A stretch of DNA of 30,608 nucleotides, taken from positions 1-30,608 of IMG/VR virus record IMGVR_UViG_3300047408_000179. One strand, written 5' to 3'. Below are positions 7,764-30,547 of this stretch, piece after piece; position 1 is the stretch's first letter, and the number at the start of each line of letters is the position of its first letter. A program made the translations under genes and the position numbers. The notes under the pieces were generated by a model. The model was not told the origin of the DNA. It searched no databases and was given only the letters and a program-made list of their open reading frames with translations. The stretch comes from a virus.

Positions 7764-8095
7764 AGGGCCTCGCCGCTTTCGTCGATGACGACGGGTCGTG
7801 GGATCCGGCCCGCCTGTTGGGCGAGGTCGACGAGCTCCCAGAAGTCGAGGACGGCGATGGGCCGGCGGTCGTTGTGACCGGCGACGACGAGCAGCCAGGG
7901 GCGGCATTCCCTTGTGCCTTGGGCTCTGGCCTGGATCACCCACTTCGACAGGACGGGTGGTCCTGGGCGGCTCGAGCGTTTGACTTCGACGCTGAAGGGG
8001 ACGCCGGTGCAGTCTGAGGTCGGGCCGGTGGGGCCGGCGCGTTGTCCGCCGAGGGCGCGGCAGATTCGGCGTTCGAGGTCTTTCCAGGCGGTCAT
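7760..8095 (-). CDS. PD-(D/E)xK nuclease, possible Holliday-junction resolvase
   Basis: A 111-residue protein with a minimal restriction-endonuclease-like core. An N-terminal helix (WKDLERRICRALGG) is followed by D28 and the E37-V-K39 motif in VPFSVEVKRS, then helices and WLLVVAGH. This size and order resemble small phage Hjc/VRR-like nucleases or recombination nucleases rather than large restriction enzymes. ATGA couples it to the replication initiator, and it overlaps the transglycosylase downstream. It is likely to process branched replication or recombination DNA; substrate specificity is inferred. Confidence 0.6.
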   Translation of the reverse strand: MTAWKDLERRICRALGGQRAGPTGPTSDCTGVPFSVEVKRSSRPGPPVLSKWVIQARAQGTRECRPWLLVVAGHNDRRPIAVLDFWELVDLAQQAGRIPRPVVIDESGEAL

Positions 8096-8700
8096 CGGGC
8101 CGCCTGGGCGAGCAGCTCTTCGCGCTGGTCGGGGGTGAGCGGTTGGCCGCCTTTCGGGAGGAGGCGGCGTTCGATGCGGCCGAACTCCTCGTCGGCCTGC
8201 TCGACACCCATCGTGTCGGGGTCGAAGGCCGGCGACGTGACCCAGTTGCGGCACGCGGTGTAGACGTTGGGGGGTTGGGGGGATGTCTCTTTAGAGACAT
8301 AAGGACGGGACGGGCCGCGCCCGCTGGCGCCCGCGCGAGAGCCGTCTACATGTAGACGATTTCCACCGTCTACATCGTCGTCTACACGACCGTTACGGTT
8401 GGCACGCCATCTGGCTTGTCTAGCGGCCTTCGTCGAATCCTTCGGGTTGTATTTCTCCCAGTTGTGGACCCACAAAGAGCCGTCCTCGTGGCGGTCGCAA
8501 AGCCGCGAAAACTCCGCCTTTTTCAACAAATTTCGGGTTACGGATCGCGGCAAAAGCCTCAGGTCGCTGGGGATCCGACCCTCGGTTTCGTAACGGGCGC
8601 AGTAGTTCATCACCCGGAACCACTGCCAACATTCCGCCTCCGACCAACCCTCGAACTTCGGGTGCTCGGTGAACTGATCGTCGGTCCGCAGCCAGCTCAC
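8092..8700 (-). CDS. Replication initiator / replisome organiser
   Basis: A 202-residue protein from a GTG overlapping the upstream TGA. The N-terminal 100 residues look like a winged-helix DNA-binding domain of phage replication proteins: SWLRTDDQFTEHPKFEGW, then LLPRSVTRNLLKKAEFSRL, GSLWVHNWEKYNP and a basic KAARQARWRANR. A low-complexity linker (103-143) and an acidic helical C-terminus (ADEEFGRIERRLL) follow, the latter probably recruiting host helicase. The linker DNA contains palindromes and repeated GTCTACA units (8283-8399), as in lambda O, where the origin lies within the initiator gene. No phage helicase or primase is visible nearby. Confidence 0.65.
   Translation of the reverse strand: MSWLRTDDQFTEHPKFEGWSEAECWQWFRVMNYCARYETEGRIPSDLRLLPRSVTRNLLKKAEFSRLCDRHEDGSLWVHNWEKYNPKDSTKAARQARWRANRNGRVDDDVDGGNRLHVDGSRAGASGRGPSRPYVSKETSPQPPNVYTACRNWVTSPAFDPDTMGVEQADEEFGRIERRLLPKGGQPLTPDQREELLAQAAR
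8283..8399. repeat. Iteron/palindrome cluster, candidate replication origin
   Basis: Within about 117 bases are four dyad or repeat elements. 8283-8300 is an 8-bp-arm inverted repeat (ATGTCTCT-TT-AGAGACAT). 8344-8357 is a perfect 14-bp palindrome, GTCTACATGTAGAC. GTCTACA recurs in direct orientation at 8368-8374 and 8380-8386. 8389-8399 is a 5-bp-arm palindrome, ACCGT-T-ACGGT. All lie in the region coding for the flexible linker of the replication initiator, where protein constraint is low. This matches origins embedded in initiator genes (lambda O). Binding by the initiator is inferred. Confidence 0.55.
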
Positions 8701-8882
8701 CGCACCGCCCGCTTCCGCCACATCTCACGGGACCGGCGAACATCACTCAACTCGTTCGTCTTACGCCTCAGCCGCAGCCGGGTCTCGGCCAACTGCTCCT
8801 GGTTGGACCAGAGCCGGTCGAGGAGCTCGTCGATCCGCAACCGGAGCCGGTAGTTCAGATCTTCCTGCGGCAACGGAGACAC
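8697..8882 (-). CDS. Small coiled-coil protein (61 aa)
   Basis: A highly charged helical protein: IDELLDRLWSNQEQLAETRL followed by a basic KTNELSDVRRSREMWRKR, a continuous amphipathic heptad pattern. The frame stays open upstream, so the start is uncertain. I chose the GTG at 8882-8880, which overlaps the 3' end of the zinc protein by 28 bases; a TTG slightly downstream is an alternative. It ends in TGA overlapping the initiator GTG. Function unknown. Confidence 0.55.
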   Translation of the reverse strand: MSPLPQEDLNYRLRLRIDELLDRLWSNQEQLAETRLRLRRKTNELSDVRRSREMWRKRAVR

Positions 8883-10896: not shown

Positions 10897-12009
10897 CTAG
10901 AAGACCCCGTCCGGACTCTTTTGTGACAGTGCAGTTTGCTCTAGTCCAATCAGGCCCATGTCGCGGGCGACATCGCGCATGTCGAGGTGCCCGTACTCGT
11001 CCGCGGTCGTCTTGATCGATGCGTGGCCGAGCACGAGCTGCAGCGTCTCCAGGCGGCCGCCGCCGCGGAGGTATCCGGTCGCGAACGTGTGCCGGGTCAT
11101 GTGCGGGTTCCGGTAGCGGACTCCGGCCTCGGCGAGACTCCTCGTCCACCAGCGCTGGAAGCTGGTGGTCGTCATCGGCGTGGCGCGCTTGATCATCGAC
11201 CCGCCGCCCGGGCGCGTGTACCACAGGTGGTCGTTGCGGTTGAGCCCCTCGAGGAGGCTGAGTTCTGCGACAGCCCTGGCAGCAGCCTCGGATGCGGGGA
11301 CGATTCTGTTTTTGTCGCCCTTCGCGCCGAGAAACGCGAACCCGCCGTACGGCATGTCCGGTGTCGGGTCGGACCGCCAACTTCCGAACTGGAACGGGAT
11401 GCAGTCGCCCTTACGGGGGCCGGCCTCGAACATCAACGTGAACAGGGCACCGTCCCGGATCGGCAGGCCGCACAGAGCGTGCTGCTCGGCCTGGGTGAAG
11501 AGGTCGTACACCTGCTTCGACCTGCGTTTCATGTCTGGCAGCGCGTCGCAGGGATTGAGCGTGACCAGCCGCTTCTTCAACGCCCACTTGTAGAACGACC
11601 GCCATGCCGCCACACGCTCCCGGCGCGAGGCGGGCTTGAACGACTTGGCTACCTCGGCCATCTCGTCGTCGCCGAACCGGTCGATGCCGTGAGTGGGATA
11701 CATGAGGCAGCCGCGGGCGAGGTCGCGTTCGTACTGGTCGAGCGTAGAAGCGGCTTTGCCGCCGAGCTCGAGGTAGGTGAGCCACGCGACGACGTGGGGG
11801 CCGAGGGCTGTTTCCCGGTACCGGTGGTCAAGCACCGGGTTGTCCAGGATCCGCCTGGCGTCCGCGAGCGTGTACAGCCGCCCGGTGAGCGGTGTTAGGG
11901 TTGGCGCGCATTCGGGACTCAACCTCCCGTTGCCGGGCCCGGGCTGTTTCGGCGGCGCCGGGCCGTTTGCTAGAGCGCCTGATGGTACAAGGTCGTCGAG
12001 GAGGTTCAT
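10897..12009 (-). CDS. int: Tyrosine-family integrase
   Basis: A 370-residue tyrosine recombinase. An N-terminal SAM-like core-binding domain at about 70-150 (AWLTYLELGGKAASTLDQYE...AWRSFYKWALKKRLV) is followed by the catalytic domain. Active-site residues visible are R199 in EAGPRKGD, K230/K233 in GAKGDKNRIV, H303-x2-R306 in HMTRHTFATGY, H329 in LGHASIKTT and Y339 in DEYGH. All are present, so it should be active. The ATG overlaps the stop of the XRE regulator (ATGA), so both are made from one leftward transcript. The tRNA-end attP follows directly downstream. Confidence 0.95.
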   Translation of the reverse strand: MNLLDDLVPSGALANGPAPPKQPGPGNGRLSPECAPTLTPLTGRLYTLADARRILDNPVLDHRYRETALGPHVVAWLTYLELGGKAASTLDQYERDLARGCLMYPTHGIDRFGDDEMAEVAKSFKPASRRERVAAWRSFYKWALKKRLVTLNPCDALPDMKRRSKQVYDLFTQAEQHALCGLPIRDGALFTLMFEAGPRKGDCIPFQFGSWRSDPTPDMPYGGFAFLGAKGDKNRIVPASEAAARAVAELSLLEGLNRNDHLWYTRPGGGSMIKRATPMTTTSFQRWWTRSLAEAGVRYRNPHMTRHTFATGYLRGGGRLETLQLVLGHASIKTTADEYGHLDMRDVARDMGLIGLEQTALSQKSPDGVF

Positions 12010-12290
12010 GCGACGGCCCCCGCGGCGTCCTCCTTGCGGGCGCGGCGTTCGCGGGCGCGTCTGCGCCGTTCGCGCTCGTCCCACCGTTCCGCCTTCAGCT
12101 CGTCGTAGTCGAGGCCGAGCTCCCTGGCGATCGCTTTGAGGGCGACGGGGTTGGGGACGTGCAGGCCGCGCTCCCACATCTCGACGGATCGGGTGGAGAC
12201 GCCGATCAGCTGCGCGAGCTCGGGCTGGCTGAGCTTTTTGCGGCGGCGGCCGGCGGTGAGGAGCTTCGGTACTCGGTTGTGACCTGGCAT
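12006..12290 (-). CDS. XRE-family regulator (Cro- or integration-control-like)
   Basis: A 94-residue protein with an N-terminal helix-turn-helix: LLTAGRRRKKLSQPELAQLI, GVSTRSVEMWERGLHVPNPV, ALKAIARELGLD. It ends in a very basic/acidic helix (ERWDERERRRRARERRARKE). It is divergent from the repressor at 12432-12926 and cotranscribed with integrase (ATGA overlap). It may act as Cro, as an excisionase-like control factor, or as a repressor of integrase. A leftward promoter ends only about ten bases before its ATG, so translation would be nearly leaderless. Confidence 0.8.
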   Translation of the reverse strand: MPGHNRVPKLLTAGRRRKKLSQPELAQLIGVSTRSVEMWERGLHVPNPVALKAIARELGLDYDELKAERWDERERRRRARERRARKEDAAGAVA

Positions 12291-12431: not shown

Positions 12432-12926
12432 TTGAGCAAAAAAGGGTTCGTCGAGCGCCTCGTCGGCGCACGTCACATCGCGGGCCTGTCGCAGGCCGAA
12501 TTGGCGCAGGCGGTCGGCGTGTCGAAGCGGACAATCGAGGGCTACGAACAAGGGGCGACCATGCCCCGCACTGGCATCACGGCGCTCGCCCAGGCACTCA
12601 ACATCGACCCGCACTGGCTGCTGTTCGGAACGTTCCCCGAAGTGGAACAGCTCGCCGAGTTCGCTCGCGACCTGCAGCATCAGACGGAGGCGTTCCATGA
12701 CGCGATGCGGTTCGCGGACGCGCAGTGGAAGGCGTTTCGGCAGCGTCAGATCGCGGTCGAGCAGCGGCTGCAGGCGTTGGAGGATCTGAACGAGCGGATC
12801 TACTCTGTGCTGGCAGAGCTGCTCAGGCGGGAAGACGAAGCGCGGGGTACGGCTCGAGGAGGCTTGCGGGGGTTGCTGGGGCCAGCGTTGCCGCTCGACG
12901 AGCCGCCGCCCGAGCTCGAGCCGTAG
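12432..12926 (+). CDS. Prophage repressor, XRE-family
   Basis: A 164-residue protein beginning at TTG, with AAAGGTG seven bases upstream. The N-terminal helix-turn-helix spans about 8-60 (RLVGARHIAGLSQAELAQAV, GVSKRTIEGYEQGATMP, ALAQALNIDPHWLLFG). A long charged coiled coil at about 70-140 (DLQHQTEAFHDAMRFADAQW...QRLQALEDLNERIYSVLAEL) probably oligomerises, with a Pro/Glu tail. There is no LexA/CI-type peptidase domain, so SOS self-cleavage is not expected. Divergence from the integrase operon and its place among plus-strand genes mark it as the likely lysogeny repressor. The 3' 104 bases overlap an antisense gene. Confidence 0.8.
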   Translation: MSKKGFVERLVGARHIAGLSQAELAQAVGVSKRTIEGYEQGATMPRTGITALAQALNIDPHWLLFGTFPEVEQLAEFARDLQHQTEAFHDAMRFADAQWKAFRQRQIAVEQRLQALEDLNERIYSVLAELLRREDEARGTARGGLRGLLGPALPLDEPPPELEP

Positions 12927-13978: not shown

Positions 13979-14043
13979 CCAACGCCTGCGGGCGTTGGGA
14001 GGGGCGGCGGGCGGCCAGCGGGGTAGCCCGCCGCCCGCCGCCC
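13979..14043. terminator. Two back-to-back hairpins between convergent operons
   Basis: 13979-13998 is a perfect hairpin, CCAACGCC-TGCG-GGCGTTGG, four bases after the plus-strand stop. 14002-14014 pairs perfectly with 14031-14043 (13-bp GC stem, 16-base loop) and touches the stop of the minus-strand gene. Neither has a long T-run, which is usual in high-GC actinobacterial DNA. Together they would separate lysogenic plus-strand from late minus-strand transcription. Confidence 0.65.
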
Positions 14044-26506: not shown

Positions 26507-27103
26507 TTAAACGTTATACCGGGCGTCAAGGACGGCAGCCTGCCGCCGCCACTCGTCGATCTGCACCCGGTCACGGTTCGGCGTCGCACCCACCGCCACA
26601 GGCTCGGGGTCGCGGACCGTGCGGACCGCCAGCACATTCGCGGTCTCGTAGGCCGGCTCGGGCGTCAACGCGATATGCGCCAGCCAGAGGCTGTTCAACC
26701 GCCGCTTCGTCCGGGTCTCCCACACCTCGGCGTGCGGCTTGTTGTTGACCCTGAACCCCGCCGAGGCGTCCAACACCCCGTCGGCGGCGAGCTCCAACGT
26801 CTCGTCACCCAACGGGACCCGCGGCGTGATCTTGATCTGCGCGATCAGCCCTTCTGACCGGGTCGGGTAGAACGCCACGGCCTTCCCGATCGTCCGCCGA
26901 ACGTCATGGTCGCGGTTCACCTTGATCCGGTTCGGCCGCTGCTCGATCCCGTCGAACGCACCCCGGCTGACGACCTCACTGATCATCTTGCCCCTGTGCG
27001 CCACCTCGGTTTCGATCTCGTATGGCACCACGATGAGGTCGATCAGCCGTTTCGGGAACGACACGTCAGCGACCTGCGACACCCTGATCTCGATCTCGTT
27101 CAT
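26507..27103 (-). CDS. HK97-type prohead protease
   Basis: 198 residues of the U35/S78-like phage maturation protease family. LIVVPYEIETEVAHRGKMIS near the start is followed by the catalytic His66 in NRIKVNRDHDVRR. Ser114 is in DASAGFRVNN, preceded by ELAADGVL. LWLAHIALTPEPAYETANVL closes the fold. It cleaves the capsid delta domain and itself during prohead maturation. The ATG overlaps the portal stop (ATGA). Confidence 0.9.
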   Translation of the reverse strand: MNEIEIRVSQVADVSFPKRLIDLIVVPYEIETEVAHRGKMISEVVSRGAFDGIEQRPNRIKVNRDHDVRRTIGKAVAFYPTRSEGLIAQIKITPRVPLGDETLELAADGVLDASAGFRVNNKPHAEVWETRTKRRLNSLWLAHIALTPEPAYETANVLAVRTVRDPEPVAVGATPNRDRVQIDEWRRQAAVLDARYNV

Positions 27104-28356
27104 TTCAGCACCCCGCTGCTGATATCGGACGGTGAGGTGTTGTCCAACCGCTCGGACTCGCGGATCTCGTCAACCCCGAGGGCTCGTGCCCCGGTGACGG
27201 GGTCCTGGATGCCGAACAGGATCTGAGCCGTCTGCGCCCTTTCAAGCGGCTCGGCGGCGACGTACTCGTCACGGTTCAACTCGACCGACGTGCCGCGTGG
27301 GAGCGCCCACCCGGAGAGCGCACTCATGATCGCCTGCGCCTTCGGCCGCAACCCGGACCGCCAGTGAAGGTCGAACCACATCGTCACGTTCTTGTACGTC
27401 ATGGGATCCGTGCTGGTGGGGATCCCGACGAGCTCCGACGGCACCCCGAGCAGGTGCGCAATACGCCCCTCTTCACGGTCGAGGAGGGCGGTGAGGCCGA
27501 TGTCTTTCGGGTTCACCTGCGTCGGCTCCCACTTGATCCCACCGCTGAGGACCGCGGGCTCGCCCACCGCGGACAGCCGGGCTTGCACCCAGTCCGCTTT
27601 CAATTGCGCCGCCTGGGCGGGTGACAACTCCGCAGGGTGCTCGAGGACACCGGAGGGGATGCCGCCGCCGCCGATCAGCTTCGCCGCGTACTGGATCAGC
27701 ATCTGCGCCGCCAACATCCGGTACCTCCCGGCGTCCAACGGCCCCTCACCGTGGGCGTACCCGGCCTGCGATCGGTATCTGACGTGGAGGATGTCGTCGG
27801 TGACGTCGAGGCCGCCGATCGCGTACTCCCGCAACCCGTCCCGGATGTCGATCGAGACCATCCACGGCGGCACCACATGAAACCGCGCCGGCCACCCCGT
27901 CGAATACCGGGCGGTCGCGAGGACGAACGCTTCGCCCATCTGGTAGTCCCAGGCGAGCTGTTTCATGAACTCGCCCCAGTCGGTGTAGACGTCCGGGTCG
28001 GGGTTGTTCAACCAGTCCGCCTGCAACGACGGCGCCGCGTCCTTCAAATACGGTGGCATCGCCGACAACTGGGCGGCGTTGAAGTCGATGCACATCCACG
28101 CCGTATCCGTCAGCTGGTTCGGCATCGCCCCACCCGACCAGTACGGCGTGAACCACTCGCCAGGCCACCCCGACCAAGCGGACGGCACGATGTTCGGCGG
28201 AACCCAGGCCGGCGGGTCCGCGCCCTCGAGCGAGAACCCGTGCGGATCCCCGGGCACGGCGCTGGGCGGACCGACGGTCGCGGGCGGGACGTCGGCGGGG
28301 TCGTTGTCGTTCGGCGTCATATCCGGCGGCCGAATCGACCTCGTGAACAAGCCCAT
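27100..28356 (-). CDS. Portal protein
   Basis: 418 residues of the HK97-type portal family. A Pro-rich, probably disordered start is followed by CIDFNAAQLSAMPPYL, DPDVYTDWGEFMKQLAWDYQ and MGEAFVLATARYSTGWPARF. The stem/crown part includes VLEHPAELSPAQAAQLKADW, GGIKWEPTQVNPKDIGLTA, LLDREEGRIAHLLGVPSELV and MWFDLHWRSGLRP. Forms the dodecameric DNA gate at the capsid vertex. The ATG has AAGG six bases upstream. Separated from the terminase by the plus-strand moron pair. Confidence 0.9.
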   Translation of the reverse strand: MGLFTRSIRPPDMTPNDNDPADVPPATVGPPSAVPGDPHGFSLEGADPPAWVPPNIVPSAWSGWPGEWFTPYWSGGAMPNQLTDTAWMCIDFNAAQLSAMPPYLKDAAPSLQADWLNNPDPDVYTDWGEFMKQLAWDYQMGEAFVLATARYSTGWPARFHVVPPWMVSIDIRDGLREYAIGGLDVTDDILHVRYRSQAGYAHGEGPLDAGRYRMLAAQMLIQYAAKLIGGGGIPSGVLEHPAELSPAQAAQLKADWVQARLSAVGEPAVLSGGIKWEPTQVNPKDIGLTALLDREEGRIAHLLGVPSELVGIPTSTDPMTYKNVTMWFDLHWRSGLRPKAQAIMSALSGWALPRGTSVELNRDEYVAAEPLERAQTAQILFGIQDPVTGARALGVDEIRESERLDNTSPSDISSGVLK

Positions 28357-28377
28357 CAGACGCCTTGCAACTTTCTT

Positions 28378-28423
28378 TGTCTAGAAGGCTTGACAGTCTC
28401 CCCGCCGTCAAGTATTCTAGACA
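28378..28423. repeat. 17-bp-arm inverted repeat spanning the moron promoter
   Basis: TGTCTAGAAGGCTTGAC (28378-28394) and GTCAAGTATTCTAGACA (28407-28423) are reverse complements at 15 of 17 positions, separated by 12 bases. The arms contain the -35 and -10 boxes of the plus-strand promoter. The two mismatches fall exactly on the TA of the -10 box, so the mirror-image promoter on the minus strand (TTGACG, 17 bases, CCTTCT) lacks a functional -10. A likely operator for a dimeric or tetrameric repressor. Confidence 0.75.
28390..28418 (+). promoter_or_regulatory. Strong sigma-70-type promoter for the moron pair
   Basis: TTGACA (28390-28395), a 17-base spacer and TATTCT (28413-28418): a perfect -35 box at ideal spacing with a one-mismatch -10. 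Predicted start near 28425. It is the clearest promoter in the window and reads rightward against the late operon, so the pair can be expressed from a silent prophage. Both boxes lie inside an inverted repeat. Confidence 0.8.
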
Positions 28424-28454
28424 TATGGAGATCAACACCAAAGGAGCCGACACC

Positions 28455-28607
28455 ATGTGGAGCAAGATCGCGAACAAGACCTACCAGCACACCAGCGGCG
28501 TCCAGGTCATCTACCGCCACAACACCTGGAACTGGGAGATCGTCGGAGGCCGCGAGGACGGCAACACCTACAAGACCCTCCGCGTCGCCCAGCACTACGC
28601 AGCCTGA
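28455..28607 (+). CDS. Moron protein, small beta-rich (50 aa)
   Basis: The start is the ATG with AAAGGAG eight bases upstream; an earlier in-frame ATG at 28425 coincides with the predicted transcription start and was rejected. The product (SKIANKTYQHTSGVQVIYRH, WNWEIVGGREDGNTYKTLR) alternates polar and hydrophobic residues like a small beta-sheet protein. No Cys or TM. It resembles short proteins often found in actinobacterial genomes and prophages, function unknown. Independent promoter and opposite strand mark it as a moron. Confidence 0.75.
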   Translation: MWSKIANKTYQHTSGVQVIYRHNTWNWEIVGGREDGNTYKTLRVAQHYAA

Positions 28608-28778
28608 ATGACGGCCATCCAGAAGATCCCGGGAGCCGCGGCGAAAGCCGCCGCGGCTTCCAAACGCCGAGACGAACTGATCCGCCAGGCCCACACCGAA
28701 GGCTCGACAATCCGAGCCATCGCCGTCGCCTGCGGCCTCAGCCCCGCCCGCGTTCACCAGATCCTCCACCACCGCTAA
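28608..28778 (+). CDS. Small helix-turn-helix protein (56 aa)
   Basis: The ATG follows the previous stop by zero bases. The first 20 residues are Ala/Lys-rich, then a clear helix-turn-helix: RRDELIRQAHTEGSTIRAIA followed by VACGLSPARVHQILHH. It is comparable with sigma-region-4/resolvase-type HTHs. Its 3' end overlaps the terminase stop tail to tail by four bases. A natural hypothesis is that it binds the palindrome over its own promoter (autoregulation); it might also be a lone DNA-recognition subunit for packaging, since no separate small terminase is seen. Confidence 0.75.
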   Translation: MTAIQKIPGAAAKAAAASKRRDELIRQAHTEGSTIRAIAVACGLSPARVHQILHHR

Positions 28779-30547
28779 AACACCGCCGCCACCGGAGCAG
28801 GCCGATGCGCCGCACCAACAGCCCACACCATCGCCTTGATCAGATGCGTCGGCCCCCGAGAGACCAACTGCAACCCCGTGCTCGTCTCCCGCACCTGCGC
28901 CGCCGTTAGCGCACCGTCCAGGTCGGCGGTGAGCTCGTCGTGGGCGAGCATCCGCCCTTGCGCCAGATCCCGGAACAACGCCAACCCCACCCTGGTTTCC
29001 GCCTGCCCCGCCGGCTGCGGCCCGGGGATCATCCCCGCCGGCACACGGTCCAACAGGCTCGCACCAACCTGCAGCTGCTTGATCTGCCGGTGCAACCCCA
29101 ACACCTGCACGTCACGGATCGCGGTGTCCCAGTCCGGGCACAACCACCCGTCCACCTCCAACCGGCCGTCCTCCAACCGGCCGACCGCGCTGACGGCGGC
29201 GCCCAACCCGAAGAAGTCCTCGACCGCAACGAACACCGGCCCCACCACCTGCAACCCCGTGTCAGCGAGGTCAGCCCATAGCCCGATCGGCAACAGGTCC
29301 TCCGCAACCCCGGGCGGCGGCGCGTGCCTCGGCCACTGGTTCAGCCACTGCGCCCGGAACGCCTCGACGGGGTCCGGCTCCTCCGGGTCGTCCTCCAGTT
29401 CGCCAGCTTGCGCCGCGTCCAACTGTCGGCGAATCAGCTTCTCCCTCGCCGGCGACCAATGCGGCGACGCCAGCCGCCACACCGCAACATCATCCAACCG
29501 GCCGTCCCGGGGCGCCGACCACTCGATCAACAGGTCACTCTCACCCGTCTCAAGGGCGTCGAGGGCGACCTGGCGGCGGGTCAGCATCAACGACGTCGCC
29601 GCCCGATGCGCCGTGCTAACGAGCAGGAGTTGCGGCTGCTCACGCTCCACCATCGTCGGCGCCAACCCCTCATCCACCGTCTTCGGCCGCACCTTCCACG
29701 CCTCATCAACCGCGCCCAAACTCACCGAATACCCGTACACCGCGTCTTTGGCCCGAAGCATCCACCGGGACCCATCCGCGAGCCGTTCGATCTCCTCCTG
29801 GCCGTTCACCTCCCGCACCCGGTACATCCCCGCCGGCTGCTGCTTCGCCCACAACCTCCCCGGCCTTTGCACTTCGCGGCAGACAGCCAGATCCTTCCCC
29901 GTATGCAACACGTCCTGCGGCTCCCCGAAACGCGCCGACTGGTGAACCCGCCACAACAGGAGCTCCCGCAGCAGCCAGCTCTTGCCGAGCTGCCGGGACG
30001 TCGACAGCACGAGCGTGTCCCACACCAACCGCCCCTGGTCGTCGACCTCGAGCAGCCTGGTCGCGACCAGCTTCTGCCACCACCTCAGCGGCCTCCCCGA
30101 CCTCGCTTCGGCGTACCGGATGAACTGACGGCCCAACGACCCCACCGCTCGAGGGTGTGGAACCGTCATCAGCCGCGGCCACACCGCGTTCGCCGGCGGC
30201 CGACGCAACCCCCGCAACCACGGAACCCGCCACACCGCATCCGACGGGTCCAACCCCTCACGCTCCGGCGAGAGCTCGGCCACCGGCGACACCCACGGCT
30301 GCGGAACCGTCCGCCCCGCCGCCGACCGGTTACACCACGAATGCTCCGGACCCGACCACCGGCTCCTATCCCCGTCAACGTGACCGAGGTCCCACGGCTC
30401 GCCCGGCAGGATCGGGTCGCCGCACCGCCCACACCTGGCTTTCCCGAGCGCCACACCCTCCGCGAGCTTCGCCCGCAACGCTTGATGGTTCGGCCCGTAG
30501 CCGCGGCCCGGAGTCGTCTGAATCCGCCGAGCCAACGCCGGACTCAC
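28775..30547 (-). CDS. terL: HNH endonuclease-large terminase fusion
   Basis: 590 residues. Residues about 36-80 are an HNH nuclease: C39-x2-C42, DLGH with H56, then GPEHSWCNRSAAG with H69, C72 and N73. After a Pro-rich linker the packaging ATPase begins: Walker A STSRQLGKSWL (K189), Walker B GAVDEAW (D281-E282), coupling motif LLVSTAHRA. The C-terminal nuclease domain has VFVAVEDFFGLG and acidic residues in a beta-rich core. HNH proteins next to terminase are known to be needed for cos cleavage in HK97-like phages; here they are one polypeptide, implying cos packaging. GTG start near the window end. No small terminase gene was recognised. Confidence 0.85.
   Translation of the reverse strand: MSPALARRIQTTPGRGYGPNHQALRAKLAEGVALGKARCGRCGDPILPGEPWDLGHVDGDRSRWSGPEHSWCNRSAAGRTVPQPWVSPVAELSPEREGLDPSDAVWRVPWLRGLRRPPANAVWPRLMTVPHPRAVGSLGRQFIRYAEARSGRPLRWWQKLVATRLLEVDDQGRLVWDTLVLSTSRQLGKSWLLRELLLWRVHQSARFGEPQDVLHTGKDLAVCREVQRPGRLWAKQQPAGMYRVREVNGQEEIERLADGSRWMLRAKDAVYGYSVSLGAVDEAWKVRPKTVDEGLAPTMVEREQPQLLLVSTAHRAATSLMLTRRQVALDALETGESDLLIEWSAPRDGRLDDVAVWRLASPHWSPAREKLIRRQLDAAQAGELEDDPEEPDPVEAFRAQWLNQWPRHAPPPGVAEDLLPIGLWADLADTGLQVVGPVFVAVEDFFGLGAAVSAVGRLEDGRLEVDGWLCPDWDTAIRDVQVLGLHRQIKQLQVGASLLDRVPAGMIPGPQPAGQAETRVGLALFRDLAQGRMLAHDELTADLDGALTAAQVRETSTGLQLVSRGPTHLIKAMVWAVGAAHRPAPVAAVF

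Follow-up and report, generated by a model that had tools for sequence, protein, structure and literature searches.

A moron cassette with a putatively self-limiting promoter, built on paired operator dyads, between the terminase and portal genes of a GC-rich phage

In acr-aca operons, the operon's own Aca protein represses a promoter that contains one or two inverted repeats (PMC9410906, PMC9410881, PMC9638941). The same aca gene recombines with different acr genes, and aca genes, which are known mostly from Proteobacteria and Firmicutes, are a main handle for anti-CRISPR discovery (PMC9765179). Here we analysed a two-gene cassette in an IMG/VR virus record of 30,608 bases from an uncultured soil phage, hereafter the window. 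The cassette resembles these operons in having a small first gene (ORF1), a small helix-turn-helix (HTH) gene in last position (ORF2), and a near-consensus promoter bearing one or two inverted repeats (PMC9410906, PMC9410881). As in acr-aca operons, the inverted repeats, here the candidate operators O1 and O2, lie within the core promoter, the cassette sits in a moron position, and the same HTH gene is found with unrelated first genes (PMC9765179). It differs in that the ORF2 protein has only 56 aa and is tri-helical, with no Aca listed among its profile matches to solved structures (PDB chains), in that no Acr homologue was found for ORF1, and in that the operator pattern GTSWAG-N3/4-CTWSAC was not found in the acr-aca literature searched. 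By analogy, the cassette would work like an acr-aca operon.

The window has a GC content of 67% and encodes an integrase and two XRE-type regulators (12006-12290 and 12432-12926), indicating a temperate phage. Among cultured phages, its terminase finds only distant relatives (∼27% identity), mainly in phages infecting Arthrobacter, Mycobacterium, and Gordonia, which makes an actinobacterial host probable. The plus-strand cassette, composed of promoter, ORF1, and ORF2, lies between two minus-strand genes, those of the portal protein (27100-28356) and of the terminase large subunit (28775-30547), the stop codon of which overlaps that of ORF2 convergently. Residues 8-80 of the terminase form an N-terminal HNH endonuclease domain (PHROG 1808), and several relatives of the protein align only from residue 66-95 onward, so this fusion may be variable.

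We retrieved 80 relatives by terminase, and the terminase-portal junction could be measured in 78 of them, giving 79 loci with the window. The two genes were separated by less than 100 nt, often by 2 nt, in 53 loci, while the remaining 26 had inserts of 104-1716 nt whose genes vary from locus to locus and in many cases lie on the opposite strand; the junction is thus an insertion hotspot. The closest relatives (75-79%) had at this place an ORF for a 62-aa membrane-type protein instead, and none of the other junction inserts had the palindrome of the window or a similar promoter pointing away from the portal gene. One two-gene cassette recurred among the inserts (L005, L007, L020, and L034); of its small genes, one has a coiled-coil-like start and the other begins near LYDFRDLDLML. 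The hotspot counts and the promoter match agree with a sequence-only reading of the locus as a two-gene moron with a promoter of its own. Like phage morons, the cassette has its own promoter, as judged from the sequence match, lies on the opposite strand to the late genes, and occurs sporadically at a hotspot. It differs from them in that no intrinsic terminator was located after ORF2: a simple scan of the plus strand found no terminator-like site after 28778, where ORF2 ends convergently against the terminase gene.

The promoter consists of a -35 hexamer TTGACA (28390-28395) and a -10 hexamer TATTCT (28413-28418) with a 17-nt spacer; no other site in the window matches at 10/12 positions or counts as a strong sigma-70 site. 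As had been described from the letters, it lies within a 46-bp imperfect palindrome (28378-28423) of two 17-bp arms (28378-28394 and 28407-28423) separated by 12 nt, in which 15 of 17 pairs match. The two mismatched pairs set GG at 28387-28388 against the TA (28413-28414) that opens the -10 box, also as read earlier. The palindrome alone is unremarkable across the window, given that 59 of 300 dinucleotide-shuffled versions of it contained an inverted repeat with 17-bp arms, at most two mismatches, and a loop of at most 30 nt, and that the real sequence has a second comparable repeat near 14000, in GC-rich sequence. The promoter is rarer, as TTGACA-N17-TANNNT occurred on the plus strand in 1 of 300 such shuffles. 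Used as a search pattern in viral contigs, the whole 17-bp arm gave 28 matches; nearly all were in coding sequence of AT-rich phages, which argues against the arm itself being a conserved operator elsewhere.

Transcribed with the late (portal) genes (minus strand, 28376-28424), the palindrome would form an RNA hairpin shortly before the portal start (-25 kcal/mol, z -3.2). A role as a terminator in the antisense direction was considered and rejected because the hairpin, although it folds well, is not followed by a U run. The minus-strand sequence GGAGACTGTCAAG at the -35 region prompted a comparison with the stoperators of Cluster A mycobacteriophages, GGTGGMTGTCAAG, but this reading was dropped, as there were no further copies in the window.

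Each arm of the palindrome is an imperfect dyad of its own: O1 (28379-28394, GTCTAG-AAGG-CTTGAC) overlaps the -35 hexamer, O2 (28407-28422, GTCAAG-TATT-CTAGAC) overlaps the -10 hexamer, and each matches GTSWAG-N4-CTWSAC at 12 of 12 positions. They are the only sites in the window with at least 11 of 12 matches, so the ORF2 protein looks dedicated to its own promoter, and two such dyads arose in none of 300 dinucleotide shuffles of the window. On this basis, the long palindrome appears to consist of two imperfect dyads placed face to face, with the mirrored -35 as an operator half-site.

ORF2 (28608-28778, plus strand) begins directly after the ORF1 stop (28607). Its AlphaFold model has three helices (mean pLDDT 84) and gave only generic HTH matches in the PDB; weak profile matches include Sigma70_r4 and WhiG, and fold matches include sigma region 4, KorA, and HigA. 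The plasmid regulator KorA and sigma region 4 likewise have a tri-helical HTH fold and recognize dyads or -35 elements, but the likeness is one of generic fold, at Foldseek E values of 0.4 and above, with no sequence relationship shown. NCBIfam and PADLOC gave no curated Aca or anti-defence family match, and no Aca appeared among the listed matches of a VIA-align fold search, an absence that proves nothing. Single-sequence searches of phages and of viral and genome contigs listed no relatives among their matches; family members were found with the recognition-helix motif GLSxARxHQI and then by profile. A relative in the related phage L110 shares 55% identity over 56 aa and likewise follows an unrelated small ORF as second gene, beside an integrase. 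The HTH gene is last in a short operon in the window, L110, and L136, follows unrelated first genes in the latter two, and stands alone in L129 and L137. In other phages, four members (L119, L120, L129, and L137) are embedded antisense in head gene modules. The L137 gene lies antisense exactly between terminase and portal genes, in an unrelated phage whose terminase and portal have best PHROG matches different from those of the window.

The operator motif accompanies this family. GTNTAG was present in the promoters of all nine members having a promoter of their own, and mostly missing where members had no own promoter or were of a more distant type; no operator was found in the more distant relatives L111-L116. 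It occurred in 5.5% of random 85-nt windows. In an unbiased count, it was the top shared word, reached in 0 of 500 shuffles for the nine promoters, 3 of 500 for seven lineages, and, more weakly, 64 of 500 for seven lineages with the -10 masked, values that are weakened because the motif was first noticed in part of the promoters later tested. The full element in the relatives is the dyad GTSWAG-Nk-CTWSAC, of which the spacer k is 4 for one clade and 3 for the other, and the HTH protein tree separates these same clades (97/94 support). Summed best scores of the k = 4 clade peaked at 100 for k = 4 vs. at most 83 for other spacers (88 vs. at most 74 when the window was excluded), and those of the k = 3 clade at 55 for k = 3 vs. 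at most 46; these peaks were reached in 0 of 1000 shuffles. The pattern GTSTAG-N3/4-CTWSAC was found in 8 of 13 whole records, while a reversed-pattern control gave 0. The spacer result and this control are the parts least exposed to bias from the choice of motif.

An O1-type element lies at the same promoter place in L110 (N4) and in L119, L120b, and L129 (N3). The L110 cassette promoter, TTGACA-N16-TATACT, carries two N4 dyads, GTGTAG-TCCC-CTTGAC and GTGTAG-TTCG-CTATAC, 22 bp apart vs. 28 bp between O1 and O2. The best or an additional dyad lies downstream of the -10 in L123, L126, and L132, and L137 is an exception, with GTGTAG present and no N3 or N4 dyad. The expectation that the same palindrome would precede homologous HTH genes thus holds for its component dyads and fails for the whole structure; the proposed tie between the HTH gene and the palindrome is strengthened in that the gene family co-occurs with the motif of which the palindrome is composed. 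Some phages have an additional copy of the dyad before another small-gene operon. Such copies, GTCTAG-TTCC-CTA..., immediately precede the ribosome site in additional small-gene operons of G051-G053 (L205, L206, L219, and L220), which suggests a small regulon.

ORF1 (28425-28607, plus strand) encodes the passenger protein, of 60 aa from ATG 28425 or 50 aa from the in-frame ATG 28455, which has a ribosome site, AAAGGAG, at 28440-28446. Given that the predicted transcript start, 6 nt after the -10, coincides with ATG 28425, the transcript would be leaderless for that start. ATGs 1237 and 1267 of L110 parallel this arrangement, the first at or near the predicted start and the second in frame, with a ribosome site, 30 nt on. 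The cassette had no DNA similarity to phage records. No ORF1 relatives were found by tblastn or peptide patterns, nor any family match, including toxin families, in Pfam, PHROGs, NCBIfam, and PADLOC; one weak match in G036 (E 9e-4, 34% over 39 aa) was discarded as a low-complexity frame. Structure prediction gave a three-strand beta model of low confidence (pLDDT 55), too poor for a fold search.

We consider it rather likely that this is a moron cassette with a self-limiting promoter, on which the ORF2 protein acts as autorepressor via O1 and O2, following acr-aca logic. That the ORF2 protein probably represses its own promoter is indicated by the promoters of its relatives, which carry the same dyad with a spacer following the protein clade. 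On entry, the cassette promoter would fire strongly, and a leaderless or nearly leaderless mRNA would give a burst of ORF1 protein. The HTH protein, translated from the end of the same mRNA, would accumulate and bind O1 and O2 as dimers; because O1 covers the -35 and O2 the -10, its binding should exclude RNA polymerase and hold the operon at a low level, also in the lysogen. The passenger would probably be early-acting, and we guess that it most plausibly counters host defence.

A toxin-antitoxin module of HigBA order, in which ORF1 would be the toxin and ORF2 an HTH antitoxin autoregulated at the operators, would share with the cassette its gene order, the HTH autoregulator proposed here, and two operators over the promoter, and both HigA and HigBA-operator chains are among the loose fold matches of ORF2. 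We regard it as unlikely, however, given that ORF1, at 50-60 aa, has no relatives and no match to toxin families (Pfam, PHROG, NCBIfam), that the first gene is not conserved (L110 and L136), and that solo HTH genes occur (L129 and L137). Control by another regulator, such as the XRE repressors of the phage, would place the cassette under lysogeny control, in line with the integrase and two XRE proteins that mark the phage as temperate. This seems unlikely as well: the dyads are confined within the window to the cassette promoter and recur in unrelated phages beside the ORF2 HTH family, with a spacer that tracks the HTH clade.

The resemblance of the ORF2 HTH to a -35 reading helix, the TTGAC contained in the half-site CTTGAC, and the profile and fold matches to sigma proteins raise the reading of the protein as a sigma region 4-like activator rather than a repressor. 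That is very unlikely, since the promoter is already near consensus, and a site over the -10 fits occlusion. The sequence-only reading had proposed a self-regulated toggle with a mirror promoter, facing the portal gene, that was crippled at its -10 box. Self-regulation is supported by the dyads shared with HTH family promoters, whereas the toggle, with a mirror promoter that drives the portal side now or did so in the past, appears highly improbable. The arms do contain a correctly spaced mirrored -35 (TTGACG), and the mirrored minus-strand site, TTGACG-N17-CCTTCT (28411 to 28383), lacks the TA of the -10 box as was noted. However, only one direction has a -10, nothing points to two states, and no promoter is needed toward the portal gene, given that terminase and portal genes abut in insert-free relatives. 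The mirrored TTGAC is accounted for by O2, which argues against crippling as a design purpose.

The cassette with its predicted autorepressor appears to be real and ordinary in principle, one of a new family of putatively autorepressed moron operons. We hold only as a tentative idea, and a rather doubtful one, that the HTH family, with its spacer-tuned GTSWAG-N3/4-CTWSAC operator, comprises undescribed Aca-like repressors of actinobacterial and similar GC-rich phages, and that the genes they control, including ORF1, are new anti-CRISPR or anti-defence genes. If true, the operator pattern would be a search tag for new anti-CRISPR or other anti-defence genes; in phages of actinobacteria from soil, a repressor family whose operator can be read would help to locate cargo genes lacking homologues. 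The spacer shift from 4 to 3, which follows a supported division in the protein tree, would be a tidy case of joint change in protein and site.

Two further repeat arrays were noted. An AT-rich viral contig without the ORF2 HTH family (L096, 11954-12017) has three tandem GTCAAG-TTTT-CTWGAC copies, 23-24 bp apart. Within the window, a replication initiator gene (8092-8721, minus strand, PHROG 3926) contains, at 8343-8386, three copies of CGTCTACA together with inverted copies (CGTCTACATGTAGACG), an arrangement resembling an iteron-bearing origin that lies within the initiator gene.
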